DNA of 61,606 bases from a virus, in IMG/VR virus record IMGVR_UViG_3300018418_000018, positions 1-61,606 of that record. One strand, given 5' to 3'. The notes under the pieces are model-generated. The model ran no database searches, was not told where the DNA came from, and saw nothing but the letters and a program-made list of their open reading frames with translations. The translations under genes and the position numbers were made by a program. Of the stretch, positions 311 to 16,468 are shown in pieces (within the stretch, counting starts at the first letter, position 1; every line of letters starts with the position of its first letter).

Positions 311-838
311 TTAAGATGTCGTATTGCTTTCCCAATACTGATACGAGAACGTGATATCAAACGTTTCGATCTGATCTCTCTGATCGTAGTCAAGAGTGAT
401 TGGTCCAACAACCGTTGGAAATGCACCTCTAAACGTGTAACGCTTGATTACAGACTCATCACGATCCAACTGATCTACAAGCAGGTCTGCTTGATAGTCA
501 ACTGGATTCGTCAAGCCAGTATTTGCACTGTGCGCGTTGATGCCGTTCATCCATCGCTCAAACGAATCACGAATGGTAAAGTCAGTATCGTTAATGATAG
601 TAACAGTCCAATCTTCGAATGTGCGATCACCCGCAACCTTTAGTTCACGACCGCGAAACGGTACTGCAAACGAGTTGGTTGAAGACTGAGGCAACTGCGC
701 AGTTTTGCAAAGAAACGATGTCAATTCGACATCGCCTCCTGCGTACGCTGGAAAGTTGAGTGTCGCCTTGAACAGATTTGGTCTAGCGCCACCACCTCTC
801 AGCTTTGACTTGAAGTCATCTACTCCTAAAATAGCCAT
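311..838 (-). CDS. 19: Tail tube protein gp19
   Basis: This 175-aa protein matches the T4 gp19 family in length (T4 gp19 is about 163 aa) and character. It starts MAILGVDDFKSKLRGGGARP, with the glycine/arginine-rich N-terminal loop typical of these proteins, and ends in the strand FDITFSYQYWES that resembles the C-terminal strand of tail tube proteins. In the family, stacked hexameric rings of gp19 form the rigid inner tube through which DNA passes. It lies 18 bp downstream of the sheath gene, as expected for the gp18-gp19 pair. An AAGGAG ribosome binding site sits 8 nt before the ATG. A terminator-like hairpin follows the gene. Nothing looks unusual. Confidence 0.93.
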   Translation of the reverse strand: MAILGVDDFKSKLRGGGARPNLFKATLNFPAYAGGDVELTSFLCKTAQLPQSSTNSFAVPFRGRELKVAGDRTFEDWTVTIINDTDFTIRDSFERWMNGINAHSANTGLTNPVDYQADLLVDQLDRDESVIKRYTFRGAFPTVVGPITLDYDQRDQIETFDITFSYQYWESNTTS

Positions 839-856
839 TAGTTATTCTCCTTGCGC

Positions 857-2599
857 TTAAACCAGTCCAACGACTTCATCAAAGTCTACACCAGTTCTAA
901 CTGCTACGAAGTTCAGTGTTACGTAGTTGATAGAACGTGCAGGCTTAATAAAGACCGATGCGACAAATTGATTGTTATCAATGATGTTTGGAGTGTTGTT
1001 TGTTTCGTCACACACCACTCTAAAATCAGTGATACCCCGTCGACCCTTAATCTCTCTCAAGAAAGGCTCGATAATATTAACGAATTCCGCACGAGTGAAT
1101 TCATCATTGAATTCGAACATAACGTTCTGTGCGGCGCCTTTGATTGCTCGCTCGATCACCAAGAAGAGGCGACGAACGTTGATGCGATCAAATGCTGAAG
1201 GACGACCTAACTTAGTCTTATCTCCGTACAACAAGATTCCTTGACCTGGCAAGTTAACAATTGGGTTAACACTGGCTTTATACAAAGTATCTCTTTGAGC
1301 CTTAGCGGGATTGTACGCTAGAGAAGTTACTCCGAAGTATTGTCCTCTCCTAGAGCCTGCTGGCGAGAACCACGGATCTGCATTCAGATCAGTAGATGCC
1401 ATCACACCCGCTGTTGCGGCTGCGGCAGGAATGTTTACATACTCATCGTTATACTTATCGTATACTTTCAAGTAGTTGCCATCGACAATCAGGTAAGAAG
1501 AAGCATTTAGCGTATTTGCCCAAGCCGCAGTTGCAGTAGCAATTACACTGGTATTTGAGCCTTGTCCTGTCACAATCGATGAAGGTGGTGAAGTCACAAC
1601 AACACAATCTTTACGTGTTACCGCTTGTGCAGTCAATGTGTTAGCCATTGTTCTACAGTCAGCACTGTCAACAACTTCTGGTGCAACTAAGAAATCCACT
1701 TGAATTACGTCAGGATCGTTATACTCACCAAAACTGATCAGATAATTGTTTATATCTGGATTAGCCGCTCTACCGCGATCAAGAGAGTAAGTACCAACTT
1801 GACCTGACGCTGAGCCTGTGAACGATGCCGCACTCGTAATTCCTGGGAACGCATCTGACAAGTTAGGTGCCCAAACATACTCGGACTGATTGTTCAGAAC
1901 GTTTTGAATAAAGTTAGTTGAACCATTGTCAGTTTTAGCGTCCGTTGCCAGAGAAAGATAAGAATACTTTTCTAGCACTGTTCCTGGCGTTCCTGTGATT
2001 TTACCATCCTCATCGAGAATGATACAGTGAACTTCGTCGCCAACTTCAGAGTCAGCCGCAAAGCCGTAGCCTGCTACGTTAGCAGATGATCTTGGCGGAC
2101 CATCAAACAGTGTAGAGATATCAGCGCCGTCAACAGTCCAGTTGTTAAACGCACTATCAGCTTCGCTATATGGGCACATTGAAATCTTAAGGCTGTTACC
2201 TAAAGTGCCAGGATATTTTGCGATAACATAGTTGTTTAGAGTGGTAATGCTACGCGCATCCCAATCATCACGATTTTTAATCAACACCTGATCAGCACCA
2301 GCCGCGATTGCGTTTTGTGCTGAATCGTCTACGGTACGTGTTACGTACGCGCTACTTGAATACTTCAAAAACATTGAAGCAGAGAGAAAATCCGATACTG
2401 CTGCCGCAGAATCGTTAGAAGGAGATCCAAATTGCGAAGCCAGTTCTGCTTCAGTGCTTACCAGAATAGGCTGATCGGCTGGACCCCAGTTAAAGTCTCC
2501 TACAAACGCTCCCGTTGAAGAAGTAACTGCCGGCACTACACCAGACAGATCGAATTCCTTCACGGTAATGTTGGGAGACTCAGATGGTAGTAATGCCAT
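857..2599 (-). CDS. 18: Tail sheath protein gp18
   Basis: The product is 580 aa, somewhat shorter than T4 gp18 (659 aa). The N-terminus MALLPSESPNITVKEFDLSG and the segment SSTGAFVGDFNWGPADQPIL are typical of phage tail sheath proteins (sheath subtilisin-like family; the name refers to fold, not protease activity). The C-terminal third contains INVRRLFLVIERAI and the final FVAVRTGVDFDEVVG, the conserved tube-embracing region that exchanges strands with neighbouring subunits in the family. The sheath contracts to drive the tail tube through the host envelope. It is followed by the tail tube gene. An AAGGA ribosome binding site precedes the ATG, and a TATAAATA late promoter lies 64 bp upstream in the 85-bp gap. 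Confidence 0.95.
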   Translation of the reverse strand: MALLPSESPNITVKEFDLSGVVPAVTSSTGAFVGDFNWGPADQPILVSTEAELASQFGSPSNDSAAAVSDFLSASMFLKYSSSAYVTRTVDDSAQNAIAAGADQVLIKNRDDWDARSITTLNNYVIAKYPGTLGNSLKISMCPYSEADSAFNNWTVDGADISTLFDGPPRSSANVAGYGFAADSEVGDEVHCIILDEDGKITGTPGTVLEKYSYLSLATDAKTDNGSTNFIQNVLNNQSEYVWAPNLSDAFPGITSAASFTGSASGQVGTYSLDRGRAANPDINNYLISFGEYNDPDVIQVDFLVAPEVVDSADCRTMANTLTAQAVTRKDCVVVTSPPSSIVTGQGSNTSVIATATAAWANTLNASSYLIVDGNYLKVYDKYNDEYVNIPAAAATAGVMASTDLNADPWFSPAGSRRGQYFGVTSLAYNPAKAQRDTLYKASVNPIVNLPGQGILLYGDKTKLGRPSAFDRINVRRLFLVIERAIKGAAQNVMFEFNDEFTRAEFVNIIEPFLREIKGRRGITDFRVVCDETNNTPNIIDNNQFVASVFIKPARSINYVTLNFVAVRTGVDFDEVVGLV

Positions 2600-2663
2600 G
2601 GTCGTGTCCTTTTTTTCGTTAATATATGATAAGAGAACATAATACGGATAATTTCAATGTATT

Positions 2664-2671
2664 TATTTATA
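2664..2671 (-). promoter_or_regulatory. T4-type late promoter upstream of gp18
   Basis: The minus strand reads TATAAATA, the exact consensus of T4 late promoters recognised by gp55 sigma. It lies in the 85-bp non-coding gap between gp17 and gp18, 64 nt upstream of the gp18 ATG, and would give the abundant sheath and tube proteins their own transcript. Confidence 0.7.
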
Positions 2672-2684
2672 AATTACCTGTTTT

Positions 2685-4304
2685 TCAGTACGGTTCGTCC
2701 CATGTTAACTGCCAGGGTTCGTACTTCATACGTTCTCTGTCTTCGATCTCTTGAATGGCACTAGACCCATCATCAACAAATCCAAACGGCACTACATCTT
2801 CTTCGATACGTCTCATCTGCTGTTCAAACATCATCTGCTTAAGATTGATGTCTGTCATGTCTGAGAACATCTGTGTCGATATAAAGTAACCGAGCATCAC
2901 TAAGTTCATCATCAAATCGTCATGATTGCCATCAGCGGCTTCGTAAGACTGTCCTTTTGAAACAAACGTAGAAATCTCTAAGATAGTATCATCGTCAACG
3001 ATATCTAATTTGTTGTTTTCAAGAAGGTCTTTGATGCCAGAACAACCAAGACGTTTTGTCTTTCGTGTCATTTCAATGCCAACAGCATTTGCTTTGACTG
3101 TTGACTCCACGTGAACATTTTCGTATTCTAGATCATAATACAAACCTCTACAAACTACGCTACCCTGGTCATTTGATTCAACGATCACATATGCGTTGTT
3201 GTAGACTTTCGCAAACTTATAGATAATGTCTGGGAAGAGTATTGGAGAAATAGTATTGTTCCGATACACAGCGACCTGTTTGAAGGGTCGCACAGATATA
3301 TCGATTACGTTAAACGTCGAATAGTCCTGTCCTCTTCCTTTTGCTACGTCGACCATCATGAGATATTCGTGATTCTTTGATGTTTCTTCGTAGATTTTTA
3401 CATCACCGCCCTCAAGCATTTTGAGTGGTGGCATTGATCTTAGATTAAGCAGTGTTTCTGCATTGATCAGTGTATCGCCCGTTCCGAAAAACGTATTGCC
3501 AAATTCTTGATCGAACTGCATCTGTGACGTGTTCGAAATTGTCTGCTTCTTCCACTCTTCATCACGTCCTGGCACGTCCCACCAATTAACTGTAAAGGCT
3601 TGATATTCGTTGATCTTTTGTACAGCGCCTTCCCAGATTTTGTGAAACGTATTACCGATACCGTTAGCGGTAGATGTTATGATAACTTTTGTATCTTTAC
3701 CAGCAGAGATTACCGGATATGTCGAGGTATAAAACTCACTAGCTCTTTCAACAAAAGCAAACTCGTCAAGAAACAGTAGATTGACAGACATACCACGAAT
3801 AGAACTGCCTGAAGTAGCAGAAGCAATAATGCGAGAATTATTTGAAAACTCAATACTACCTTTGTTGAGAGCGCGGCAGCCAGGTTGTAAAAAGAAGGGT
3901 AAGTTTTCAAGAGCCAACGTGACCCGTGCAAGCATTTCTCTTGCAGTTGCGCCTTTGTTGGCAAGCACCGCAATCGTTTTCTCAGGATGGAATATAGCGT
4001 ACCAAAGTAAGTAAACAACTGACGAAATACTTTTACCAGACTGACGACAAGCCAAGACGATAGAAAACCGATTATCGTTAAAATGGTTGAACATTTTTTC
4101 TTGATATGGGTATAGGTCAAAGTTGACAAGTCCTTTATCAAGTGATATAATCTTTACGTAAGTCTTTGCAAAATATGCAGGATCTTTCATGCACTTCGCG
4201 TACTCTAGCACTTCATGCTGAGTCCACTCTTGCTGTACTCCATCACGTTTTACATTGACATTACCTAGATAATGTTCATGGTCACTCATTCGATGGGCTA
4301 ACAT
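2685..4304 (-). CDS. 17: Terminase large subunit gp17 (packaging ATPase/nuclease)
   Basis: From the ATG at 4304 the product is 539 aa. The Walker A motif is CRQSGKS (residues 86-92), the Walker B motif is LLFLDE with Asp180/Glu181, and a coupling-type motif ITSTANG follows around residue 210. The C-terminal half holds the RNase H-fold nuclease signature: VDVAKGRGQDYS, then IVESNDQG, and a late acidic DD pair near the end. In T4-like phages gp17 pumps DNA through the portal and cuts the concatemer. An AAGG ribosome binding site lies about 7 nt before this ATG; a second ATG at 4289 is possible. The gene overlaps the end of gp16 by 23 bp, the normal terminase arrangement. Confidence 0.95.
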   Translation of the reverse strand: MLAHRMSDHEHYLGNVNVKRDGVQQEWTQHEVLEYAKCMKDPAYFAKTYVKIISLDKGLVNFDLYPYQEKMFNHFNDNRFSIVLACRQSGKSISSVVYLLWYAIFHPEKTIAVLANKGATAREMLARVTLALENLPFFLQPGCRALNKGSIEFSNNSRIIASATSGSSIRGMSVNLLFLDEFAFVERASEFYTSTYPVISAGKDTKVIITSTANGIGNTFHKIWEGAVQKINEYQAFTVNWWDVPGRDEEWKKQTISNTSQMQFDQEFGNTFFGTGDTLINAETLLNLRSMPPLKMLEGGDVKIYEETSKNHEYLMMVDVAKGRGQDYSTFNVIDISVRPFKQVAVYRNNTISPILFPDIIYKFAKVYNNAYVIVESNDQGSVVCRGLYYDLEYENVHVESTVKANAVGIEMTRKTKRLGCSGIKDLLENNKLDIVDDDTILEISTFVSKGQSYEAADGNHDDLMMNLVMLGYFISTQMFSDMTDINLKQMMFEQQMRRIEEDVVPFGFVDDGSSAIQEIEDRERMKYEPWQLTWDEPY

Positions 4305-4632
4305 CAATCACCTTTTCATCTTCGCTTTGTTGCAACAAACGTTGCAGATCAGTAGTACTTCCTATAAAAACATTATTATTGGTAATTGCTTTAGGCTCTT
4401 CTTTTTCTTGCGTTATGTCTTTGGTCTTCTTATTTAGTTCCATCAATTTATCGTTGACATCTGAGATGTTTTTGATCATGTTCGACAGAACTTCAAAAGC
4501 TCTAGGATGTTCAGACTCACGAGCAACCTCAATCATCAGATCGAGTGATTCTCTTCCCTTATCAATCAACTCGTAATAAGTTGAGCGAGAATAATCGTAG
4601 TCCGATTTAATATTAGGATCATCTTTTTTCAT
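4282..4632 (-). CDS. 16: Terminase small subunit gp16
   Basis: This is a 116-aa acidic, helical protein overlapping the start of gp17. The central segment RSTYYELIDKGRESLDLMIE followed by AFEVLSNMIKNISDVNDKL is the helical region typical of T4-like small terminases, which assemble into rings and regulate gp17 and DNA recognition. The family assignment rests on position and this helical pattern. T4 gp16 is longer (164 aa). Its own start lies 13 bp after the stop of the 1359-aa gene, so it is probably co-transcribed with the fibre genes upstream. Confidence 0.85.
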   Translation of the reverse strand: MKKDDPNIKSDYDYSRSTYYELIDKGRESLDLMIEVARESEHPRAFEVLSNMIKNISDVNDKLMELNKKTKDITQEKEEPKAITNNNVFIGSTTDLQRLLQQSEDEKVIDVSPSNE

Positions 4633-4645
4633 ACTACGGCCCTAT

Positions 4646-7600
4646 TCAAGCTGGATTCACGTCAATATCAGTTCCAACATACTCAAGTTCTGAGAAGTAC
4701 GCAATACTTTGAGTGTCGGTGTTTGTCGGATCAGCATCATCAGTTATTGTAAACGATACAAGCATACTCGCTAAACGACTAGTCGGTTGACGTGCAGATG
4801 CAATGAGATCAAATTGTTGAGTACTAGACAGTGATAAGTTTGTTCCGTAACTTCCCACTGCTACACCACCATCGCTTGGAACTCCAGCGCCTTGAATTGT
4901 TGCTGTAATCGTAAAGTTACCAGTCGTTGTCGCCGCTTGATGCCACGTCCCAAGTTTAATGTATTGATCTGGAAGTGGTGTTCCTGGAATAACATTACCT
5001 TCACCGTAGATGCCACCATCAGAACGGAACTGCAATCCAGACACCGCGGTGTTAAGTATCTCATTAGTGTATGCTTTTATGGTCTGTACAGCCCACGTAG
5101 TGAAGGCAGGTTCAAGCTGGAAGTTTACAACAGATTCGTTGCCACCAACAGTGGTATCAGTGATTGTAAATCCTACACTTGCTACTGGAGATGCTGGGCG
5201 CGCTTGATCGTATACAGCCATCGTATACGTGTCATCAATCGTATCATCGTTCGTAGCTGTGACAGTAGTGAATCCACCAACGTTATTGGTCATGGTAAAT
5301 GTTCTTTCAGAGCCTGCATCGAAATCTGCTACAGTTTCAGAACTGCCAAACACTAGTCTTGTGTTCTGAACATTTGCTGTTAAGTTTTCACTCATATTAA
5401 TTTGATAGTACAGTATAGAATCACCTAGTGTTACTGCAAATTTACCAGTAACAGTTCCTGGTACATTCGCGTCATTGACGCAAACACTGCCGTTCGGAAT
5501 ATTAAGGGCTTCTGGATCACTCGTTCTAATTGCAGACTGACCTGAACCAGAGCCACTGCCATCTGTCACAACTACATCGTAGTCTGTGAGATTTGCATAG
5601 TACGTTCCATTAGGAATATTTGTGCCACCAACAGTCCACGTAATTGTATCGCCTTCATCTACAGTTGTGCTAGGTGAAGCGGTAAGCGTCCACGTAGCGG
5701 GCGCATCTAGTACAGAGAACGTCATTGTGTCAAGCACGTCACCACCGTTACTTGCAAAATCGTTTCGTGATAGATACGCTACACCAAATTGCTCGCCTTC
5801 GTATGTGCCATCAAATATTGGTCTGTTAAAGTCTGCACCACCTTGTGTCGTGAACAAAGTTTTTAACACTTGAGATGCTGGATCAGTTTCAGCAAACGGA
5901 ACATATATCTGTGCGTTGTTTATCCATTTGCTAGACCAAGGACTACCGAGAGCATCTGACTTTTGCAATTCAAAATACAAGTTTTCGTCAACTGCCGCAT
6001 TCGTCGTAAAGTTTAATACAAGACTCTCAGTACCTTCTGTAACAGCACTATCACGCACTCCTTCTTGCTCAACAACATACAGGTTATAATCAGTTGCACT
6101 AGCATCTAGAATTCTTACAGATGCGGACTGAGCGAGTGTTACACCTGAACTGTTCTTAACAATTGCCCAGAAATCTTGTTCGTCTGAATCTTCGTCTTGA
6201 CCATCATCACGAATTAGCAACGAGAACGTTCCTGTTCCACCAGAAACTACCATTCCATTTCCTGTTGATGCTTCATCTCCGTATGGCAATTGCGAAGCGG
6301 AATACAGTCCTACATTTGTAGGCTCATCGACATCCCACTCGCCTGTGGTGGGATTTAGTTTACCAAAGTCATTTGGCGTTAAGCCTCGTAATCCATCAAA
6401 AGTTAAGAAAGTGTCGAACGTTTGTACTTGCCAATCGAATATTCCATCAGCGCCAGTCGTTGTAAATGTAAACGTTAAAGTCTCACCTTCTGGAACACGT
6501 GTTTTGTTCGGAGTAAGAGTGTAAGTAGCCGCGGCTCCACCACGAATCTGATTTAATGAAGAAACAAGCGGATCGAACACTACAGGATCTGAATGAAGAT
6601 ACGCATAAAAAGATTCGTCAGCAGTTTCGGAACTGTCAGCAAAAGCAAGAGATGAACTTGTTCCACTATTGTTTGTTACCGTAATTGAAGCACGTGAGTT
6701 TAATCCTTGTCCAGGAGCTCCTCCATTGCCGGCATACGTTAAGAAATCTAAATTATTTGTGCCGACATTGCCAATCTGAAGATAATAAGTGCCGTCAGCA
6801 ATGTTGCTTCCAGACACATCGAATGTAACAGTATCACCTTCATTCGCGGTTGTAGGATTCATCGTAAGATTGTAAATTGGATTTTGATCGAACACGTTGA
6901 AACCAGAAGATGTTGCTACGAGAGCAGGACTGTACTTACTATTTGTAACTTGAAGGAATCCTCCAGTTACACCTCGTCGAATAGTATCAGCCCGAACTTG
7001 AATGCTAAAAGTAGTTGAAGTGCCTGAGTTAAGTGTAAATGATCCAGAAGTTGCAAGCGGACGTGGATCACTAGCTAAAGCGCCAGTAAATTGCCATGTG
7101 ACTGTATCGCCACCATCTTGCGAACTATGATTGATTGTAAATGAAAGAGTATCACCTTCAGTATAGCTCGCCGCGCTCGGTGTAACAGTGAACGTAGCCG
7201 CCGTGTTGTTAATCGCAACAGTTACAGAGTCTTTCTTAATTCCTTCGAACGTCTGAAGTATCACAGCGAAATGTTCTGTGCTTTCTGATACCGTGTCGCC
7301 ACGAATCGGAATAATAATATCACCATCTGAGTAAGACAGGACGTTAGGAGGAGTTGAAGCACCAAGAGTAGGTCTAATATTTACAGGTTGTGGATTATTT
7401 GAGTCGGGCAACGGCGTGACAAAATCAGAGTCAGTTGTCGAAATATGTTTGCCGTACCAGTACAGTGTTGTGCTATTCCACGCTTTTGTGTTAGGGTTAC
7501 CATTATAAAGTGAACCTGAACCATGCGATGCAACAATCAAAAGATCATCACCTTCATCAATAGGATCAAATGGAATCAACTGATATTCTGTAATTACATC

Positions 7601-8725
7601 ATTCAACACTACGCGATCAGACGCAATGGTTCTTTCACCAACATCTTCAACGAATACAGTAAACGCTTCTTGTCCTTCGGTTTCAACACTATCAATGCCT
7701 GTTGGTATTGTAAAGTAACCAAACGCAGGTCCTAACGGACTGTCTTGCTGTAACTGCAAAAATGCTTTACTGCTTCTAAGAGGCACTTCGTACGGTGGCG
7801 TATAGTTGAACGCACCCGCTGAATCGAAATTGTAGAAATCATCTGTTGACGTATCGCTCGCAAGATCGCCACCAGCAGGATCAACGAAATAACGAACCGT
7901 TCCTGTGCCAGCTGGAATGTTCGTGCCGCTAATCTTGTATCTAAAGATTGTTCCTTCTGGAACACTGTCGATATTGCCTGTCAGCGTATTGTATACAGGA
8001 TCACCGATGTAGCCTTCACGATAACGTCCCGCACTATCAAGAAAACGAGTTAACTCCCAAACAGGAGAAGGTCGTTGACTTACAGCAGAGTCTTGCATGA
8101 CAGCGTTAATTGCTGGAGTAATCACATCGTCAATCGACACTTCAGCGCCGAGATACATGCCTGCTGGATGAGCAAACAGTTTGAAAATATCACGCCATTT
8201 CGAAATGGGCACGCCGACTCGTATCAACAGAGCGAACGTCTGATACAATTTGTCGTTGGTCAGATATCTCAGTGAATCAGGACCGATTTGCGAAGAGGTG
8301 TTGTTTAATGTGAAAACGTTTTCTTTTGGATAAATTACGTCTGCGTCGAGACCATAGAATGATCTAAAGAACCACTCGATAGCAAACTTGGTACCCTTTG
8401 ATCTGAACAGCGTATTCGAAAAGTTAGCCGCCGCTCTTTTCTCAAAGTCTTCTGTGCCGAAGCCTTCGAAGTATGCTTCACCCAAAAGAAACTCGTCCTC
8501 AATAAACGAGAGAAGAGTGATGTCAGTTTCGTTAATATCACGGACAGCAAAGAGATGATTTAACAACTCATTCGGATCGTTCTGATCTTGCCACTCATAA
8601 TAATTTTTTAATAGGTCGATGAACTTAGGATAGAACTGAGCAAAATGTTCAGGCAATACGTTCTCGACCTGCATTTCACGCAGATTAAGTAGTCTTCTTC
8701 TTTTATCTAAAAATCCATTATGCAT
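4646..8725 (-). CDS. Large virion protein with Calx-beta-like tandem repeats
   Basis: The product is 1359 aa. The first ~230 residues form a distinct domain (EHFAQFYPKFIDLLKNYYEW, later FRSKGTKFAIEWFFRSFYG and WRDIFKLFAHPAGMYLG), a type of N-terminus I associate with structural proteins of marine T4-like phages. The remainder is a chain of beta-sandwich-like repeats, each opening with a version of T.TPS..SYTEGDTLSFTI (also NEGDTVTFDVSGSNI, PEGETLTFTFTT, DEGDTITWTVGGTNI). This E-G-D/E-T-h-T-F pattern is that of Calx-beta/adhesin repeats, which often bind calcium and mediate surface attachment. No enzymatic motif is seen. It abuts the protease gene directly. A fibre or baseplate-attached adhesin is the best guess. 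Confidence 0.7.
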   Translation of the reverse strand: MHNGFLDKRRRLLNLREMQVENVLPEHFAQFYPKFIDLLKNYYEWQDQNDPNELLNHLFAVRDINETDITLLSFIEDEFLLGEAYFEGFGTEDFEKRAAANFSNTLFRSKGTKFAIEWFFRSFYGLDADVIYPKENVFTLNNTSSQIGPDSLRYLTNDKLYQTFALLIRVGVPISKWRDIFKLFAHPAGMYLGAEVSIDDVITPAINAVMQDSAVSQRPSPVWELTRFLDSAGRYREGYIGDPVYNTLTGNIDSVPEGTIFRYKISGTNIPAGTGTVRYFVDPAGGDLASDTSTDDFYNFDSAGAFNYTPPYEVPLRSSKAFLQLQQDSPLGPAFGYFTIPTGIDSVETEGQEAFTVFVEDVGERTIASDRVVLNDVITEYQLIPFDPIDEGDDLLIVASHGSGSLYNGNPNTKAWNSTTLYWYGKHISTTDSDFVTPLPDSNNPQPVNIRPTLGASTPPNVLSYSDGDIIIPIRGDTVSESTEHFAVILQTFEGIKKDSVTVAINNTAATFTVTPSAASYTEGDTLSFTINHSSQDGGDTVTWQFTGALASDPRPLATSGSFTLNSGTSTTFSIQVRADTIRRGVTGGFLQVTNSKYSPALVATSSGFNVFDQNPIYNLTMNPTTANEGDTVTFDVSGSNIADGTYYLQIGNVGTNNLDFLTYAGNGGAPGQGLNSRASITVTNNSGTSSSLAFADSSETADESFYAYLHSDPVVFDPLVSSLNQIRGGAAATYTLTPNKTRVPEGETLTFTFTTTGADGIFDWQVQTFDTFLTFDGLRGLTPNDFGKLNPTTGEWDVDEPTNVGLYSASQLPYGDEASTGNGMVVSGGTGTFSLLIRDDGQDEDSDEQDFWAIVKNSSGVTLAQSASVRILDASATDYNLYVVEQEGVRDSAVTEGTESLVLNFTTNAAVDENLYFELQKSDALGSPWSSKWINNAQIYVPFAETDPASQVLKTLFTTQGGADFNRPIFDGTYEGEQFGVAYLSRNDFASNGGDVLDTMTFSVLDAPATWTLTASPSTTVDEGDTITWTVGGTNIPNGTYYANLTDYDVVVTDGSGSGSGQSAIRTSDPEALNIPNGSVCVNDANVPGTVTGKFAVTLGDSILYYQINMSENLTANVQNTRLVFGSSETVADFDAGSERTFTMTNNVGGFTTVTATNDDTIDDTYTMAVYDQARPASPVASVGFTITDTTVGGNESVVNFQLEPAFTTWAVQTIKAYTNEILNTAVSGLQFRSDGGIYGEGNVIPGTPLPDQYIKLGTWHQAATTTGNFTITATIQGAGVPSDGGVAVGSYGTNLSLSSTQQFDLIASARQPTSRLASMLVSFTITDDADPTNTDTQSIAYFSELEYVGTDIDVNPA

Positions 8726-11700
8726 TTAACTGTAAGCACCTGTGAAAGTCGATGTGAACGTGCCGATGTATCCTTCTAGACTAATACCGGCATAATCACC
8801 CACATAGCTTGTAGCCCCGGCAGATACAATATTTATAGTGCCTACCATTCCGCTATGGAATTGACAGATATAGTACAACGTGCTTGGCGCTGAAGAGTCT
8901 ACTGCAAACGTCAACGTACCTGTTTGTGCACCATTGTTAGTCACACCAGTATTGAACTGATCACCAGTTCCAGTATTTGGTGCTGTCTTAATCCAGAACG
9001 GATGACCGCTTACGCTTAAGTTGAATGTGTATGTGGTGCCTCTTTCAAGTGTCAACGTTGGATTCGACGCACTATCAATAATGTAGTTAGAAGCACCATT
9101 GTTGGTTACGTTCATCGAAGTGTTCGATCCGCCAACATAAGTTGCACCTGCATAAGTTGCACCGGTATAGTTGCCTACGTAAGTCTGAACAAAGGTGCCT
9201 ATGTAGTCTCCCGCATATATGTTAGGCGAACCTTCACCCACAAATTCATCAGTAAATGAAGTTGCATATTCTCCAATGTAACTGACTGTGTAAGTTTGAT
9301 TATAGCTTCCCGCCCCACCGCTGAGATATGATGGTACATAAGATCCAAGATAAGTCGTTTGTATAATATCTCCGCCACCACTATCGATAGATTGATAATC
9401 GGCAACGTAGGCAAGTGGCGCACCTCCTACGTAGGTCGCGGCACTGTCGCCCGTATAGGAAAGTACTTCATAATTAGTTAGATAAGAGCCATCGTAAGCG
9501 CCTAAATAGATAGAGGCATATAATTCAGTTCCAGCTTTCACATAGGATGTCTCATATGTTACCTCGCCACTGTAATCTGCTTGCAGGCCTGGAAACTCAG
9601 GATCTGGCGGGTCCAATGGACCCTCGTAATTCAAAGTTGTGGTGTAACCTGCCAAATAATCTTGCGTATATGTACTCGACGCAGAATCAACATACACAGC
9701 CGCGAAAGCGCCGGTGTAAGAACCATCATAAGCAGTAGTGTATGATGTTTCACCGCTAATGTAGTTACTGAGATATGATGTTAGAGTACCGGAGTCAGCG
9801 GTCTCTGATATGTAAGCGCCTACATATGGCGCGGCCGTAAACGCTGTTCCTGCACTATCACCGCCAGTGTATCCAGATACGTAATCGCCAATATAATTTC
9901 CTGCATATGCGGCTATGAAGTCACCTATATACCCACCGAGATATGCTGGCGAATAGTCTAGACCACTGCTGTCGTTGATATATGTTTCAACGGTTGTATA
10001 ATCAGCGGCGCCAGTGTATGTCAGCAATGCTTCAGCAGGCGCTTCAATAGGCGGTGCTGAAGGATAAAGCACGTCTCCTATGCTTCTTCTTGTTTTAACA
10101 ACTCTAGTTCTTGGCCAAATTAAACCTGAAGTTGGTCTTTCTTTGTCATTAACTTTTGGAACTGTAACACCCGATACGTATCGCTCTTCTTTGTAGCGAA
10201 GATAATAGTTAGGCGTGTTTTTTAAATCCGTTGTCAGTGCTTGCAAAGCTGGATAACTATAAGTGGTAACATCACCCCAGTCCAGAGATGAATCAAACAT
10301 TATGTCTTTAAAAGCATTACCTTGAAGATACGCTTTTGCTTCGGCTTGCGTTAAATCAGGATTGTTTTGCAAAGCACAAGCGAGTGCACCTGTGACTTGT
10401 GGTGACGCCATGCTTGTACCGCTAATCTTGGCTAGCCAAGCACTTCCTATTGCTCGGTCGTCGCCGATAGTATCATCGTAAATGCCATCAAAACGAACCG
10501 AACTCATAATTTCGTTGCCGGGTGCAAAAATGTCTGTCCGCGGACCAAAACTACTTGAAAAGTCTCTCTGATTGTTTGAGTAAATTGATGCATTACCCAC
10601 ACAGATAGATGCGATACCAGGCGGTGAACCTCGATGATAAAAGACCGCAGAGTCTCCGCCCTGATAGTATGCGCGTACACCGCCTAAAGTCTTGTCTTTA
10701 AGATAGTATTTGTTATTATAATCTGGTCCATTTTCAGAGTCTAGATATTGACTATTGTTACCAGCAGAAGACACCACAATGATGCCATCTTCAATACAAT
10801 CCAAAGTCTGCTGTTTCGGCGATTCGAACAACCAACTAACATTCGATGTACGTGCGTCAGGAATTCCTGCTCTGTCATTTAGCGATAGCCCAGCATCACG
10901 AAAAGCGCGTGTGAGTGCCCAGTAAGCGGGCAAGCCAAGGTTATATACTTGCGCGTCTGTAAAAGGTGCGCTATACTCTGTGCCGCGATATACAATTCTT
11001 TCAATCTCATTCGAATAGTCTGAAATTGTACCGCCATAACTACCATAGTTATAGCCCCAACTGTTGTTGATGATTGTGGGATTTTTGCGACCAGTTTCTG
11101 GATTAACTGCCTTGTTTCTGTGAAATGCACGTACGTAATCTAACACATAACTAGAACTGATACCAGTTGATGACCAGTTGTAATTAGTACTATAAGGACT
11201 GATCGAATAAAGATTGGCTTTTCTTGCCCAGCCTTGTCTATTACCGGCAACAGTACCCATCACGTGTGTACCGTGATTGTTATTCGACGAATCACCTAAG
11301 ACATTTGTAGTGTAGTCGTAAGTACCGTTAGAATAAGTGCCGCCAGTAACTGAGTCAGTATGCTGAAACCAGTTATATTGAATAATTCGCGATCCACCAG
11401 AACCATCAGTATTGACAGCAAATTCTGGATGATCGAGGCTGGGAATACCATCAACGACAACGACATCAACGTTAACGCCTTCTGCATTAAGTGTTACTGT
11501 GCCTGAGTCAGCATACGTGGCTGTACTAGTAAAATTAGATAGAGGAACACCAGAACTTGACGTTACTGACTGACTTTGCGTAGATTGCCATAAGCCCCAG
11601 TTTCTTTGAGTAAAAGAAGCGGCGCTTCGATCTTTTCGCCAGTATGAACTGGTTTGTTCCCAATGAGGCTCGGCAACAATGTTATGTTGCTCAAGTGCAG

Positions 11701-11914
11701 GCTCAACAACTCTAACGCGAGGGTCTTGTCTTACTTCTTCTGCTTCTTCGTCTGTTAACCGATATGCGGTAACTTTACTGAAAGGAAGCCTTGCTTCGTA
11801 ATCAACCGCGCGATCTGGTATGTGAAGATAGCCACCGGGCGTCTCCATGTCCGCATAGAATGCATCCAGATCCTCTGTACGATGCAATATGACGTGATAG
11901 ACTTTCAATGTCAT
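8726..11914 (-). CDS. Subtilisin-like protease fused to Y-x-G fibre repeats and a cupredoxin-like domain
   Basis: This is a 1062-aa modular protein. Residues 1-75 resemble an I9-type inhibitor propeptide (SKVTAYRLTDEEAEEVRQDP then VEP). Residues ~145-560 are an S8 (subtilase) catalytic domain with an intact triad: Asp155 (VVVVDG), His214 (HGTHVMG), Ser501 (GTSMASP), and oxyanion Asn386 (SSAGNN). Residues ~633-925 are repeats such as YIGDYVSGYTGG and YVGAYI, the same type as in the 2078-aa fibre. Residues ~935-1030 form a small beta domain with His971 (SGHPFWI) and CQFHSGM (Cys1017, His1020, Met1023), matching a type-1 copper ligand set. No signal peptide is present, so it is more likely a virion component than a secreted enzyme. 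Copper binding and virion location are inferred. Confidence 0.85.
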   Translation of the reverse strand: MTLKVYHVILHRTEDLDAFYADMETPGGYLHIPDRAVDYEARLPFSKVTAYRLTDEEAEEVRQDPRVRVVEPALEQHNIVAEPHWEQTSSYWRKDRSAASFTQRNWGLWQSTQSQSVTSSSGVPLSNFTSTATYADSGTVTLNAEGVNVDVVVVDGIPSLDHPEFAVNTDGSGGSRIIQYNWFQHTDSVTGGTYSNGTYDYTTNVLGDSSNNNHGTHVMGTVAGNRQGWARKANLYSISPYSTNYNWSSTGISSSYVLDYVRAFHRNKAVNPETGRKNPTIINNSWGYNYGSYGGTISDYSNEIERIVYRGTEYSAPFTDAQVYNLGLPAYWALTRAFRDAGLSLNDRAGIPDARTSNVSWLFESPKQQTLDCIEDGIIVVSSAGNNSQYLDSENGPDYNNKYYLKDKTLGGVRAYYQGGDSAVFYHRGSPPGIASICVGNASIYSNNQRDFSSSFGPRTDIFAPGNEIMSSVRFDGIYDDTIGDDRAIGSAWLAKISGTSMASPQVTGALACALQNNPDLTQAEAKAYLQGNAFKDIMFDSSLDWGDVTTYSYPALQALTTDLKNTPNYYLRYKEERYVSGVTVPKVNDKERPTSGLIWPRTRVVKTRRSIGDVLYPSAPPIEAPAEALLTYTGAADYTTVETYINDSSGLDYSPAYLGGYIGDFIAAYAGNYIGDYVSGYTGGDSAGTAFTAAPYVGAYISETADSGTLTSYLSNYISGETSYTTAYDGSYTGAFAAVYVDSASSTYTQDYLAGYTTTLNYEGPLDPPDPEFPGLQADYSGEVTYETSYVKAGTELYASIYLGAYDGSYLTNYEVLSYTGDSAATYVGGAPLAYVADYQSIDSGGGDIIQTTYLGSYVPSYLSGGAGSYNQTYTVSYIGEYATSFTDEFVGEGSPNIYAGDYIGTFVQTYVGNYTGATYAGATYVGGSNTSMNVTNNGASNYIIDSASNPTLTLERGTTYTFNLSVSGHPFWIKTAPNTGTGDQFNTGVTNNGAQTGTLTFAVDSSAPSTLYYICQFHSGMVGTINIVSAGATSYVGDYAGISLEGYIGTFTSTFTGAYS
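8830..8837 (-). promoter_or_regulatory. Possible late promoter upstream of the 1359-aa gene
   Basis: TATAAATA on the minus strand inside the 3' end of the protease gene, 104 nt before the next ATG. It is an exact consensus match, but it lies in coding sequence and at a longer distance than the other late promoters here. Confidence 0.35.
9130..10020 (-). repeat. Y-x-G-rich repeat segment of the protease
   Basis: This segment encodes about 290 residues of irregular repeats built on Y-[TVIAL]-G-x-[YF] (e.g. YIGDYVSGYTGG, YAGDYIGTF, YVGNYTG). It is shorter and less regular than the array at 28030-32790 but clearly of the same kind. Codon choice differs between copies, so the repeat is maintained at protein level rather than by recent DNA duplication. 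Confidence 0.8.
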
Positions 11915-11921
11915 ACTTCAT

Positions 11922-13445
11922 TTAGCCTTCAAGTTGTAGTGCCGTAAGTGTAACGTCGACCGCAGTTGTTCCTCCACTTAGATTTACGACCTTGATGGGA
12001 ATAGTGTCTGTGACAGGAGATGAATTATTGAAACCCGTAGGAGCAGGAGCCAAGTTGATTGTTTCCGCACCCGATGTAATTACTTCAGTCACAACACCAG
12101 AACCTGGCGTTGGATCTTCTGATTGAAGACGACCAAGATCAGCAGTGCGTGAAGCCGAGTCAGTATAAACTCTAACCCATGCCGCAACGTCTGTTTCTAT
12201 CTTGAACAGAGAATAGCCTTTAAATGCGCCAGTGATGTTTACATCTACTGAGTCGCCATCACTTAACGAAGTAGTAACAGTATTGAACGTGTCGCGTGAT
12301 TGAAGACCAGTAGGTTTAGGAACTGTTACCCAGCCCGCACCGTTGTAAGTTATGATATCATTGAATGCGGCAAGACTTGTGTTAACATCAGTCAGATCAT
12401 TTAACGCAACAGATCCACCAGCACCAACAGAGTCAGCCGCATTTACCCAGTTAGCCCCATTATACTTTAGAACTTGATTTACAGAAGGCGCTGAAATTGT
12501 TACGTCTGTCAAATCGTTGAGTGCACCCGAAGCACCGCCAACAGAGTCAGCGGCATTTACCCACTGTGAACCGTTATATTTAATAACTTGATTCGTTGTT
12601 GGCGCAGTGATTGCTACACCAGAAAGCGTGTTTAAATTTACAGATGAACTGACAAGTTGCAACGTCAACGCACTGTCAAGCCCACCGCCGCCACCGCCGC
12701 CACCTGATCCACCAGAATCATTAGCATTAGCCCACTTAGTTCCGTTCCACTTAAGAACTTGTCCAACCGTAAGAGGATTTGCAGAAAGTGCAGAGTCGAT
12801 AAAGATGTCATCCAACTCATAAAGATTAGTTGGACCGGCTGAGTCAGTTGCGTTTACCCAATAAGCACCGTTGTACTTAAGAATTTGTCCGTCAGACAAA
12901 CTAGAAATCAAAACATCATCGAGTTCTACAAGATTTTCTTTACCCGCAGAATCTACGCCGTTAATCCAGTTTGAGCCATCATACTTAAGTACTTCACCGT
13001 TAAGTGGCGTGACGATACTAACATCTGTCAACGCATTAAGCGTAACTGGTAGCGTAGCAGAGTCGTAAAGGTCTTGCAAGAAATAATCAAGATAATCGAT
13101 AACAGCCGCCGCAGTAGGCAACGCGCCGTTACTATCGTGATTCTCAATACCTGTGCCAATAAATCGAAGTGCAGTGATGCCACCAGTAACGTCAGTCAAT
13201 GAACCAAACGAGACATCGCCCGTTGCATCGATGTCACCACCAACGATTAGATCGTTGTTAACTTTTAAGTCTTGCTTTGCAACTGCGTTGTTGGCTGAGT
13301 CAAAAACGTTTCGTGTAATGCCTACAAGAAAACGATCACGGGTAATCTTTTTAGTGGTAGCCGCAGTAATATCATTGATCACAAGAACGTCACTGTCTTG
13401 AACGTTGATCAATTCCTGTAATTCTGAGATTCTAATATCTGCCAT
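11922..13445 (-). CDS. Fibre protein with tandem LxDLxDV repeats and a Gly-rich hinge
   Basis: The protein is 507 aa. Residues 1-45 carry an N-terminal domain (ISELQELINVQDSDVLVIND, then TTKKITRDRFL) shared with three other proteins in this cluster. The middle has about six imperfect repeats of roughly 35 residues, with a core like LNDLTDVTISAP followed by VLKYNGANWVNAADSVG. These are common in phage tail fibres. A run of nine glycines sits between repeats, probably a flexible hinge. The last ~100 residues (FKGYSLFKIETDVAAWVRVY) form a separate beta-rich C-terminal domain that could be receptor-facing. A TATAAATA late promoter lies 30 nt upstream. The exact position on the virion cannot be read from sequence. 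Confidence 0.7.
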   Translation of the reverse strand: MADIRISELQELINVQDSDVLVINDITAATTKKITRDRFLVGITRNVFDSANNAVAKQDLKVNNDLIVGGDIDATGDVSFGSLTDVTGGITALRFIGTGIENHDSNGALPTAAAVIDYLDYFLQDLYDSATLPVTLNALTDVSIVTPLNGEVLKYDGSNWINGVDSAGKENLVELDDVLISSLSDGQILKYNGAYWVNATDSAGPTNLYELDDIFIDSALSANPLTVGQVLKWNGTKWANANDSGGSGGGGGGGGLDSALTLQLVSSSVNLNTLSGVAITAPTTNQVIKYNGSQWVNAADSVGGASGALNDLTDVTISAPSVNQVLKYNGANWVNAADSVGAGGSVALNDLTDVNTSLAAFNDIITYNGAGWVTVPKPTGLQSRDTFNTVTTSLSDGDSVDVNITGAFKGYSLFKIETDVAAWVRVYTDSASRTADLGRLQSEDPTPGSGVVTEVITSGAETINLAPAPTGFNNSSPVTDTIPIKVVNLSGGTTAVDVTLTALQLEG

Positions 13446-13475
13446 TTTATTTCCTCAATACTTTGCGGCTGTCAC

Positions 13476-13483
13476 TATTTATA
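13476..13483 (-). promoter_or_regulatory. T4-type late promoter upstream of the 507-aa fibre gene
   Basis: An exact TATAAATA on the minus strand, 30 nt before the ATG at 13445. It overlaps the stop codon region of the preceding gene and lies mostly in a 33-bp intergenic gap. Confidence 0.65.
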
Positions 13484-14969
13484 TCGTCGCACTTTGAGTC
13501 AGTGAGCCTGTAATGGCTAGATCACCATTCTCAGAAAGACTCATCTGCTTAGTGCCATTATGAGCGAACGTTAAATTACCAGCACTCTCATAAACTTCCC
13601 ACTCACCTGTATCGAAGATTGTAGCAGAAAGTCTGCCTCTCAATGGGTTATAGGTAAGATTCGTGTTTACGTTTACGTTATCGTTACCAGAAGTTGTACT
13701 ACCAATGTGTACGTAATATTGCGCACTATCACCAACAGTTGTTATGGCAACGTTTTCTGCGTTCGTTGCATCAATCGCAGTGACGTTAGTTAAGTTCGAA
13801 CCATCACCCGAGAATGAGTTTGCGCTGAGTGTAAATGTTGAGGGATCATATGTAAGAAGTGCAGTAGTACTTACACTATCGTAACCTAGCTCTGTTGTAC
13901 GCAACATGACATAGTGTTTGCCCGCAGAGTCAATAGCCTTCGCGTCTGTTTGTTCTGTCGAAGTTGCAACTGCTGTACTTGTAATGTTCGTTAAGCCAGA
14001 ACCATTTCCGTAGAAAATACCACCAACACTTCGAATGTCGCCCTGTACAATCAGGTCACTATCTACTTTTAAATCACCTAGTGCCCTTGATCCACGAGTT
14101 GGATAAACTGTTCCGCCAGAATCGATAAAGTTGCCTAAACGTCTCGCTTCTTCTGCTATTTCAGCCAAGACTGCATTTGATGCATTGATTGCACTGTCAG
14201 CAGTGATTGCGTTTTCTGCTGTTAGTGCAGTATTTGCAAACGTAGCATTGACAGCACTATCCGCAGTTTCAGCATTACCAGCAGTTGTTGCAAAATTAGC
14301 GTTAGTTGCAAAGTCTGCACTATCTGCATCGATAGCACGAAGTGCTGTCAAAGCGGTATTTGCTAAAGTCGCGTTAACTGCACTGTCTGCTTCGGTTGCT
14401 CGGTCGGCAGTAATTGCTGAAGTTGCTCTATTCGCACTGTCAGCACCAAATGCAAAGTTTGCAGTTGTTGCAAACACAGCATTGGTCGCGTTTGTTGCAC
14501 TGTCTGCTCGCTCGGCTGAAATTGCTTGGGTTGCAAAGTCGGCACTGTCAGCAGTTGTAGCCGCATTCGCAAATAATGCTCGCTCGGCTTCAATAGCAGT
14601 GGTCGCTCTTGCGGCACTGTCAGCGAGTACGCCTGTTAATCCAGCGCCATTACCAACAAAGAATCCAGCGGTAAGTGTATTCGTAAGAGCGTTGTAGAAT
14701 AAATCGGTGTCTACTTTTGCTGAGTCTGCCGCCGGCGTGCCAGGTGCGTTAGGAAACAAGGCTGGATAAAACGTGACATCCGCGTCTGTCGCTTCGATTA
14801 AAAGTTTGTCAGCAGTGCCAGCAGAAGCCGCCGCACTTGCTGGCTCAAGCAAATTTTCAACAGTGATAAACTTAGTAGAATTTGTATCAAGATCGACAAT
14901 GACGAGAACGTCATCATCGGCAGGCGCCTGTGCTAATTCTTCTAACTCTGTAATCTTTACGCCTGGCAT
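13479..14969 (-). CDS. Fibre protein with Ala/Asp-Ser heptad-like repeats
   Basis: The protein is 496 aa. Its N-terminus (VKITELEELAQAPADDDVLV, then STKFITVENLL) is the domain shared by the four-gene cluster. Residues ~113-275 are a low-complexity repeat rich in ADSA, with spacing close to seven residues (ADSADFATQAISAERADSA and similar), which could form a long coiled-coil or beta-helical shaft. The C-terminal half has two or three copies of a GDGSNLTNV / GNGSGLTNI-type repeat, widespread in phage fibres. There is no catalytic motif. The 5' end is 3 bp from the preceding stop codon, so it is in the same operon as its paralogues. Confidence 0.7.
   Translation of the reverse strand: MPGVKITELEELAQAPADDDVLVIVDLDTNSTKFITVENLLEPASAAASAGTADKLLIEATDADVTFYPALFPNAPGTPAADSAKVDTDLFYNALTNTLTAGFFVGNGAGLTGVLADSAARATTAIEAERALFANAATTADSADFATQAISAERADSATNATNAVFATTANFAFGADSANRATSAITADRATEADSAVNATLANTALTALRAIDADSADFATNANFATTAGNAETADSAVNATFANTALTAENAITADSAINASNAVLAEIAEEARRLGNFIDSGGTVYPTRGSRALGDLKVDSDLIVQGDIRSVGGIFYGNGSGLTNITSTAVATSTEQTDAKAIDSAGKHYVMLRTTELGYDSVSTTALLTYDPSTFTLSANSFSGDGSNLTNVTAIDATNAENVAITTVGDSAQYYVHIGSTTSGNDNVNVNTNLTYNPLRGRLSATIFDTGEWEVYESAGNLTFAHNGTKQMSLSENGDLAITGSLTQSATI
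14144..14630 (-). repeat. ADSA heptad-like repeat array
   Basis: This DNA encodes the alanine-rich shaft of the 496-aa fibre protein. On the plus strand the word GCACTGTCAGC and close variants recur many times, each encoding Ala-Asp-Ser-Ala on the minus strand. The frequent reuse of the same word (not just the same amino acids) suggests that part of the array arose by recent duplication or is kept similar by recombination. A weaker version lies in the 246-aa gene (about 15950-16330). Confidence 0.7.
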
Positions 14970-14972
14970 TGT

Positions 14973-15686
14973 TTAGCTCCTAAGTTCTTCAATCTGTTTT
15001 GACAACTCTTGAATAGCAGTAATCAAAATAGGTACCAATTTATGATAGTTAATTTTTTGATAGTTAGGCTTGCCATCATTGTGTACAGCATCTTTTTCGC
15101 CAAGCACAACATAAGGAACAACCTCTTGTACTTCGTGTGCGATTAACGAATCGAAAATGCCTTCTTCTAAAGCCCCTATCTCTTTGACATATTCTGTTTG
15201 GTAGACTTTTAATTGATTGACAAGACTCAGGGCATCTTCTGTTTCACCATGCACAATTTTTGCACGATGATCAGATACAGCGCCATCTACGTAATCTTTA
15301 ACAGCCGCAGATGTAGGAATAGATGTGTCATCATCATTTGAAGCAATACCATCAGCTTCGTCTACAAGTTTCGTAATAATAATATTTTCAACAGCATCTT
15401 TTAGCGTGTCAAAAGTGATCGTGCCATTAACGGTAAGGTCCGCACCCATAGTAGTTGAGCCGTTGATAGCCGCGTCTACGTTTACATCGAGGGAGTTGCA
15501 CGTGAGCGTTTGAATGAACGCGCCATTCTCTCCAGAATCTCTTACGTTCGTAGAGTTCCGAAGAAAATTTTCCCTACTAATCTTTTTAGTAGTGGTCGTG
15601 CTAAAGTCATTGATGACGATGTAATCGTTATCTTCAGCAGTAATTAACTCGCGAAGACTCGATATTTTTACGCCTGCAATTGCCAT
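14973..15686 (-). CDS. Short fibre protein with S74-type intramolecular chaperone domain
   Basis: This 237-aa protein has the shared N-terminal domain (VKISSLRELITAEDNDYIVI, then TTKKISRENFL) and a short beta-rich middle. Its C-terminus from about residue 138 looks like a peptidase S74 / endosialidase chaperone domain: VSDHRAKIV with the conserved Ser-Asp pair at 138-139, then IFDSLIAHEVQEVVPYVV, and a final helix AIQELSKQIEELRS. In this family the domain helps fibres trimerise and then cleaves itself off between Ser and Asp. Such a domain normally ends a fibre; here it follows only ~137 residues. A TATAAATA promoter lies 29 nt upstream. The cleavage is inferred from the family. Confidence 0.75.
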   Translation of the reverse strand: MAIAGVKISSLRELITAEDNDYIVINDFSTTTTKKISRENFLRNSTNVRDSGENGAFIQTLTCNSLDVNVDAAINGSTTMGADLTVNGTITFDTLKDAVENIIITKLVDEADGIASNDDDTSIPTSAAVKDYVDGAVSDHRAKIVHGETEDALSLVNQLKVYQTEYVKEIGALEEGIFDSLIAHEVQEVVPYVVLGEKDAVHNDGKPNYQKINYHKLVPILITAIQELSKQIEELRS

Positions 15687-15715
15687 TTTAAATCCTCAAT
15701 TAAAAATCTTTCTCT

Positions 15716-15723
15716 TATTTATA
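15716..15723 (-). promoter_or_regulatory. T4-type late promoter upstream of the S74-domain fibre gene
   Basis: An exact TATAAATA on the minus strand, 29 nt before the ATG at 15686, in the 41-bp gap after the 246-aa gene. Confidence 0.65.
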
Positions 15724-15727
15724 TGGG

Positions 15728-16468
15728 TTATGCGCCAGTACCGCCATTCAATGTTCTAACAACAAGTGCCAATCTATCTAAGGCACTATCTACCGTTGTT
15801 GGCGGTGAAACACTCCAGAGGGCAGCACTGTCAGTAGAATAAGCGTTCAAATTTATTTTCAAATGATCAATTGCACTGTCAACGAATACAGGTACGTTAT
15901 CCCAGATAGTATCTAAAGCTCTTTGATCATAATATGCCTGCTGTGCCTTGGCAGCAAAATCTGTAACTATCGCTGAGGCGGCTCGGGCTGAACTGTCAGA
16001 GCGTAAGGCAAAAGTTGCGTTACCAACACTATCTAACGTTAAGTAATCCGCTCTGAGTGCAAAAGCGGCTGTTGTGGCGCTGTCGGCAGTTTCAGCCCGT
16101 TGAGCATAATTAGCGAAAGTTGCGTTTGTCGCACTGTCAGCACTGTTTGCCCTTAGAGCAAGGATTGCATTCGTTGCATTTGTTGCACTGTCAGCGGCGT
16201 CAGCAGTTAATGCATTAGCGGCAACTGCAACACTATCAGCCACAAACGCTCTATTTGCTACAACTGCAAATCTAGCGTCAAGTGCGCTATCAGCAAAGGT
16301 AGCTTGAATGGCAAGTGTCGCATTTGCAACGCTATCGACTGCTGATAACAGGTCACTGATCAGAATTTTTTTCGTTTCTGAAAGGCTGGCATCAACGATT
16401 GCAATAAAATCATCGCTATCAGGAGGACCGACTAATTGTGCCAGTTGCGATATTTTTACGGTTGCCAT
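15728..16468 (-). CDS. Fibre-associated protein with Ala-rich repeats
   Basis: This 246-aa protein begins with the cluster's shared domain (VKISQLAQLVGPPDSDDFIA, then ETKKILISDLL). Residues ~45-175 are alanine-rich and repeat ADSA/DSATNA motifs with near seven-residue spacing, as in the 496-aa paralogue. The C-terminal ~70 residues (DNVPVFVDSAIDHLKINLNA and similar) are predicted helical and end in GGTGA. No enzymatic signature is present. It follows gp15 by 12 bp. It probably forms a shaft or adaptor that attaches through the common N-terminal domain. The function is not known. Confidence 0.6.
   Translation of the reverse strand: MATVKISQLAQLVGPPDSDDFIAIVDASLSETKKILISDLLSAVDSVANATLAIQATFADSALDARFAVVANRAFVADSVAVAANALTADAADSATNATNAILALRANSADSATNATFANYAQRAETADSATTAAFALRADYLTLDSVGNATFALRSDSSARAASAIVTDFAAKAQQAYYDQRALDTIWDNVPVFVDSAIDHLKINLNAYSTDSAALWSVSPPTTVDSALDRLALVVRTLNGGTGA

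Follow-up and report, generated by a model that had tools for sequence, protein, structure and literature searches.

A putative tail-borne subtilisin-like protease with a cupredoxin domain, paired with a fibre gene in a marine T4-like phage

The virus record IMGVR_UViG_3300018418_000018 of IMG/VR, analysed here over its whole length of 61,606 bases (the window), encodes at positions 8726-11914 of the minus strand a 1062-residue protein in which a propeptide-like domain and a subtilase are followed by a stretch of Y-x-G repeats, a cupredoxin domain and a short tail. The plus strand of the same interval is full of stops. The data show which domains are present and what folds they have, which residues are conserved, how the genes are linked and that the protease-cupredoxin pairing recurs in other phages. 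We consider it probable that the protein is a tail-borne protease docked on a fibre and furnished with a metal-binding module. The protein matches PHROG_9158 over its full length (expectation value (E) 5.6e-111; profile positions 5-695 of 696). Its features are as follows.

8726-11914, minus: 1062-residue protein (propeptide-like domain, subtilase, Y-x-G stretch, cupredoxin, short tail)
11666-11914, minus: residues 1-83, beta-alpha-beta-beta-alpha-beta, subtilisin propeptide-like (secondary structure of the AlphaFold2 model; match to 3whi)
10190-11482, minus: residues 145-575, S8 subtilase catalytic domain (PF00082, Foldseek)
11450-11452, minus: codon of catalytic Asp155
11273-11275, minus: codon of catalytic His214 (HGTHV)
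10757-10759, minus: codon of oxyanion Asn386 (AAGN)
10412-10414, minus: codon of catalytic Ser501 (GTSMA)
9125-10114, minus: residues 601-930, fibre-like Y-x-G repeat stretch (Y-x-G enrichment; no confident structure prediction)
8819-9118, minus: residues 933-1032, cupredoxin domain (profiles, ligand conservation, AlphaFold, Foldseek)
9002-9004, minus: codon of ligand His971
8864-8866, minus: codon of ligand Cys1017
8855-8857, minus: codon of ligand His1020
8846-8848, minus: codon of ligand Met1023

The protease and the Y-x-G stretch

An earlier sequence-only reading of this DNA had described an intact Asp155/His214/Ser501 triad with oxyanion Asn386, and all four residues were found at those positions. 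Pfam Peptidase_S8 (PF00082) covers residues 151-541 (E 5e-27; 95.4 bits against a gathering cut-off of 21.8), and a phmmer search of the PDB matched proteinase K-like enzymes. Foldseek returned the proteinase K-like structure 2b6n (E 5.8e-15, template modelling (TM) score 0.80 on target length) and 1s2n (E near 1e-14, TM score about 0.8 on target length). The Asp and His are invariant in 45/45 aligned relatives, the Asn and Ser in every member long enough; a broken triad was looked for among these relatives, and the triad was kept across all 45 that are long enough. Compared with the relative L011, the ratio of nonsynonymous to synonymous substitution rates (dN/dS) in the catalytic domain is 0.11. 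Judging from these sequence features, the protease is probably an active enzyme.

In the full-length AlphaFold model, a beta-alpha-beta-beta-alpha-beta N-terminal domain precedes the subtilase and a confident C-terminal sandwich. Foldseek matched unautoprocessed pro-subtilisin E (3whi) over ~555 columns, a match that fits the propeptide reading of residues 1-83. A propeptide-like domain, as proposed earlier, is suggested by predicted topology and by the 3whi match, but the I9 propeptide family was not matched in a Pfam scan of the protein. The N-terminus, MTLKVYHVILHRTEDLD, is not signal-peptide-like as judged by eye, in agreement with the earlier view that a signal peptide is lacking. Between the subtilase and the cupredoxin, residues 601-930 hold 23 Y-x-G motifs, compared to a mean of 6.4 and a maximum of 14 in 2000 composition shuffles. 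The repeats first described as fibre-type are therefore real as an enrichment; the word fibre remains our interpretation, because AlphaFold gave no structure at residues 579-929, where the predicted local distance difference test score (pLDDT) falls below 50.

The cupredoxin domain

On the strength of its predicted structure, the C-terminal domain is a genuine cupredoxin of the short-loop kind with a type-1-like His-Cys-His-Met site. Residues 933-1032 were modelled by AlphaFold at pLDDT 97-99 and show the Greek-key beta-sandwich of cupredoxins. The top Foldseek matches were exclusively cupredoxins or multicopper proteins, the best PDB folds being AcoP (3.6e-6), rusticyanin, copper nitrite reductase, plastocyanin and pseudoazurin. 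A profile search against the PDB gave rusticyanin (3.6e-4) and plastocyanin (4.8e-4), as well as copper nitrite reductase, amicyanin and azurin, and the Cys-His-Met loop stays in register in these alignments. The Pfam Copper-bind family scored 15.4 bits on the domain, below its gathering cut-off of 21.2. Together with the conserved ligands described below, the model and the fold and profile matches sustain the earlier proposal of a cupredoxin fold with four ligands.

The ligand spacing identifies the kind of loop. His971 and Cys1017 lie 46 residues apart and are followed by Cys-x2-His and then His-x2-Met. This C-x2-H-x2-M loop has the length of the amicyanin loop and is two residues shorter than the C-x2-H-x4-M of plastocyanin, such that alignment to plastocyanin 2plt requires a two-residue insert on the plastocyanin side. 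In amicyanin the His-Cys spacing is near 39; the phage domain has the amicyanin loop but, at 46, not the amicyanin spacing, and it gave no match to the amicyanin model TIGR02657 in NCBIfam. The resemblance to plastocyanin pointed out at the start (a gap of 46, C-x2-H, with the Met closer) holds in those respects, whereas the loop spacing is closest to that of amicyanin. Capture of a host plastocyanin was considered and rejected, given the different loop spacing and that the carriers are structural proteins.

Some relatives had been retrieved using the C-x2-H pattern, and relatives were consequently split by retrieval route. Among domains of BLAST-found phages, 17/17 retain the complete set of four ligands, as do 22/22 that only the GHPF motif retrieved, and exceptions amount to 3/126 non-redundant domains in all. 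Because the 39/39 domains in these two sets were retrieved independently of Cys-His-Met, conservation of the ligands cannot be put down to the use of C-x2-H-x2-M as a search pattern. In one record (L138:1412-4600), a degenerate cupredoxin copy without the Cys, His and Met stands next to an intact copy. Against L011, the cupredoxin has a dN/dS of 0.12 and a dS of 0.56, ~5x that of the catalytic domain (0.10); against L012, it is 89% identical, compared to 65% for the protease. With a dS far above that of the catalytic domain in the first comparison and a closer relationship than the protease in the second, the domain appears to have been exchanged by recombination while being held under purifying selection. 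We consider it likely that the domain binds a metal, with copper somewhat more probable than not.

The fibre partner and the distribution of the pairing

The gene preceding the protease, a fixed upstream partner missed in the sequence-only reading, encodes a fibre protein.

11922-13445, minus: 507-residue fibre protein (fib507), with its stop 7 bp before the protease start
11928-12308, minus: fibC, the ~125-residue C-terminal domain (residues 380-506) of the fibre protein
13476-13483, minus: late-promoter-like site TATAAATA, ahead of the fibre-protease pair

Among 57 distinct protease loci with upstream sequence, fibC forms the very C-terminus of the preceding gene in 52, with a gap of -20 to +7 bp, and on this basis the fibre and protease constitute a fixed two-gene module. 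The remainder of the upstream gene varies from <200 to >1300 residues across loci. As a control, fibC was found anywhere in only 1/65 loci that had been fetched for the cupredoxin and that have no protease. In cultured and single-cell phages, fibC and protease matches lie at most 56 bp apart in 11/11 checked records, and S-CAM1, chosen solely for having fibC, carries a divergent S8 protease directly downstream. No relative of fibC was found in Pfam or the PDB. From this linkage, it is likely that fibC and the protease form a complex. Such late-promoter-like sites are enriched (11 vs 2.5 expected), and 10 of them are on the minus strand.

Nearly all structural genes of the window are carried by that strand, including those for tail tube, sheath, terminase subunits, baseplate, head completion, fibre and lysozyme. 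The large and small terminase subunit genes lie at 311-4632, and the terminase shares 73% identity with that of Phage C48C1, a member of the Kyanoviridae, and ~48% with that of Synechococcus phage S-H38. Since the terminase small subunit gene of C48C1 comes right after the sheath stabiliser gene, the block at 4646-16468 that contains the protease gene, ~12 kb of fibre and protease genes that separate the sheath stabiliser gene from those of the terminase, is accessory relative to this nearest phage, from which it is absent. Directly downstream of the protease, the open reading frame (ORF) at 4646-8725 (minus) encodes 1359 residues with a baseplate-wedge match near the N-terminus followed by Ig/Calx-like repeats, and its position downstream of the protease is conserved in loci L007-L015. 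A 496-residue ORF at 13479-14969 (minus) matches chlorovirus glycoprotein repeats (Pfam PF06598, E 2e-9). Further away, a 2078-residue ORF at 27799-34035 (minus) contains 138 Y-x-G-x-[YF] units and is a fibre-type protein of the Y-x-G kind, for which Pfam gave no convincing family.

The cupredoxin domain is present in 354 phage records, mostly at the C-terminus of the cyanophage baseplate protein gp9. Contrary to the initial impression that the architecture was unknown in phages, deposited cyanophage proteins already combine the protease with the same cupredoxin in one chain (S-H9-1, ACG-2014e/h/i/j, S-CAM4 and AG-345-P14), and the same domain order, sought in other phages, was found in S-H9-1, ACG-2014i and S-CAM4, so it is not unique. 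These proteins are annotated just as 'subtilisin-like serine protease' or 'hypothetical protein', and PHROG_9158 as 'unknown function'. Five arrangements of the pairing were seen.

C-terminal fusion: S-H9-1, ACG-2014i, S-CAM4
Fusion with an alpha/beta-hydrolase-like domain between: ACG-2014h, L200:1409-4330, one 974-residue protein
Cupredoxin inserted inside the protease: L089, L092, L094, L142
Circularly permuted cupredoxin inside the protease: S-CAM1, L213:4395-6650 (profile positions 78-97 precede 2-73)
Neighbouring genes: L019, L020, L095, L106, L149, L151, P-SSM2, S-SCSM2R

The permuted cupredoxin of S-CAM1 sits between the catalytic Asp (apparently Glu there) and His. In S-SCSM2R, the gene beside the S8 peptidase gene (L194:1288-1791) is annotated PetE (plastocyanin), likely a misannotation of a structural cupredoxin domain protein; a plastocyanin assignment was rejected, as the protein belongs with the structural cupredoxin carriers. 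Proteases of L045-L076, L089 and L092 have a ~360-460-residue insert in the catalytic domain that looks nidogen-like on visual inspection and in some cases has a cupredoxin nested within it, and two tandem protease genes occur in L065/L089, L092 and L094. The domain also reaches beyond phages: a cellular S8 protease from an Opitutus metagenome-assembled genome (L172:2-4660) carries it near the C-terminus, and it is found on Bacteroidota, Planctomycetes, alphaproteobacterial and other bacterial contigs (L161-L193).

Proposed role and relation to known systems

The suggestion that the protein rides on the virion is supported indirectly, by an S8 relative in S-SCSM1 that is annotated as a virion protein. 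In that record the note '(virion protein)' is attached to gp144 (S8 plus two laminin-G domains) and to gp141 (cupredoxin plus fibC), and 45 virion proteins of S-SCSM1 were detected by mass spectrometry (PMC9602691). By our own reading of the annotation, the tag denotes detection by mass spectrometry; in the S-CREM2 record it is placed on gp122, 123 and 126, which appear in the peptide table (PMC10665884). A cupredoxin was sought among the S-CREM2 proteins with peptide counts and was not found. We infer that the 1062-residue protease is, with good probability, virion-borne in this phage.

We propose that this T4-like (Kyanoviridae-like) phage would carry the subtilisin-family protease on its tail or baseplate, and that fibre protein and protease would be expressed from one late unit of two genes, the protease coming second. 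The fibC domain may act as a docking partner or adaptor for the protease, and the N-terminal part of the fibre, free in length between phages, could anchor the pair to the virion. The propeptide-like domain may hold the protease inactive until assembly or contact, after which host-surface or tail proteins would be cleaved during adsorption. The cupredoxin would be one of a set of swappable tail modules that also includes Y-x-G fibre, nidogen-like, laminin-G, alpha/beta hydrolase and Ig-like domains, and is most likely a metal-stabilised binding module, presumably holding copper. Several observations weigh against this proposal. S-SCSM1 gp144, at ~31% identity, has neither a cupredoxin nor fibC upstream, and the S-CAM1 protease seems to carry Glu at the Asp position, such that at least one relative may be impaired. 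Five of the 57 protease loci lack fibC upstream (two of these are second copies behind another protease gene), and docking by fibC is an interpretation, since this domain has no known structure or family. Finally, a fused cupredoxin is absent from most protease homologues, which makes the module dispensable for the core function.

The substrate of the protease is, on balance, expected on the host side rather than in assembly. An assembly or maturation protease that trims its partner fibre or other tail proteins in the infected cell, for example by freeing fibC, which would have served as an intramolecular chaperone, and that later travels with the virion, would equally suit the strict fibC-protease adjacency as an enzyme-substrate pair, the shared late unit and a protease without a secretion signal. 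However, fibC is conserved up to its last residues with no recurring cleavage motif seen, in phages such as PSS2, S-CBS2 and S-CRES1 the gene after a fibC-like domain was not found to encode an S8 protease, and the protease bears adhesive modules that vary (laminin-G, hydrolase, nidogen-like) and point to a task at a surface, making such a role rather unlikely.

For the cupredoxin, the alternatives concern what the metal does. A purely structural module, in which any thiophilic ion (zinc, copper) lends stiffness to a small beta-sandwich of the fibre and copper chemistry plays no part, the natural ion being zinc or iron, is the strongest of the alternatives but less likely than not. Against it, Cys and Met ligands in such an arrangement mark copper sites, and a Met is unnecessary in structural zinc sites. 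In its favour, the domain is used in a repeat-like manner in many fibre and gp9 proteins, and phage tails with proposed iron sites are known (PMC11705849). A working redox or copper-delivery centre, taking copper from sea water or host and transferring it, or electrons, where the phage meets the host surface, or switching the protease by its metal state, would fit the four type-1 ligands being invariant over very different carriers and the repeated origin of protease coupling, which took several layouts and even reached inside the catalytic domain. Yet no partner redox gene was noticed within the window, most proteins that carry the cupredoxin belong to the baseplate or fibres and include no enzyme, and the other modules on related proteases are binding domains; we regard this as improbable, and it would surprise us more if the metal had a redox or regulatory function. 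Least credible by far is a metal-free immunoglobulin-like beta-sandwich whose four residues are kept by chance or packing: Ig-like folds are common on phage tails and the ORF at 4646-8725 has a weak Ig_3 match, but the ligands are present in 39/39 unbiased relatives and cupredoxins are the best PDB matches by both sequence and fold.

Cyanophage S8 subtilases are tied by these results to a specific fibre domain, making their location and role directly testable. In addition, a domain of 354 phage records, found mostly in the baseplate protein of marine T4-like phages, can be named a cupredoxin whose metal site is intact. Should copper occupy this site, the metal would be present on the tails of ocean phages, much as iron has been proposed to be, and the infection of picocyanobacteria could depend on how much copper is available. 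Tentatively, we extend this to type-1-like copper centres being standard tail parts of abundant ocean phages, with protease and cupredoxin functionally coupled in one lineage through a pairing that arose several times independently, next to a dedicated fibre adaptor domain; if so, phages would use copper as a cofactor when they attach or enter. The phage domain would also provide a natural example of a short-loop cupredoxin with no part in electron transport.

The S8 enzyme is already known as a kind present in cyanophages. In the open-licence PubMed Central (PMC) literature, nothing relevant was found on cupredoxin or plastocyanin-like domains of phage tails, no account of a fibC-protease module, and no role for cyanophage S8 subtilases, though the enzymes are annotated; within that literature, both the fibC-protease module and the recognition that phage tail proteins bear an intact-site cupredoxin are new. 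The closest known proteins are the PHROG_9158 members of S-H9-1 (QPB08157.1), ACG-2014i (YP_009140959.1) and S-CAM4 (YP_009320623.1), which share the order of propeptide-like domain, S8 subtilase and C-terminal cupredoxin and, as here, have a fibC gene directly upstream, but at 668-690 residues lack the 330-residue Y-x-G stretch and are ~30-33% identical in the protease. S-SCSM1 gp144 is likewise a phage S8 subtilase with adhesive C-terminal modules and differs in having no cupredoxin. The Kyanoviridae gp9 'baseplate wedge tail fiber connector' (phrog_677) has the same C-terminal cupredoxin with all four ligands but no protease and an otherwise unrelated sequence, the 1062-residue protein matching only profile positions 279-410 of 412. 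Extracellular proteinase K-type subtilases (1s2n, 2b6n; aqualysin) have the same catalytic fold and residues, but are secreted by cells via a signal peptide and have no virion or fibre parts. AcoP, rusticyanin, plastocyanin, amicyanin and pseudoazurin share the fold and His-Cys-His-Met ligands of the phage domain, whose loop is as in amicyanin but whose His-Cys spacing of 46 is closer to plastocyanin; these are cellular electron carriers, whereas the phage domain sits in structural proteins. Iron sites have been proposed on phage tail fibres as HxH motifs, under the 'Trojan horse' idea (PMC11705849), while the site described here has Cys and Met among its ligands and lies within a folded cupredoxin domain.

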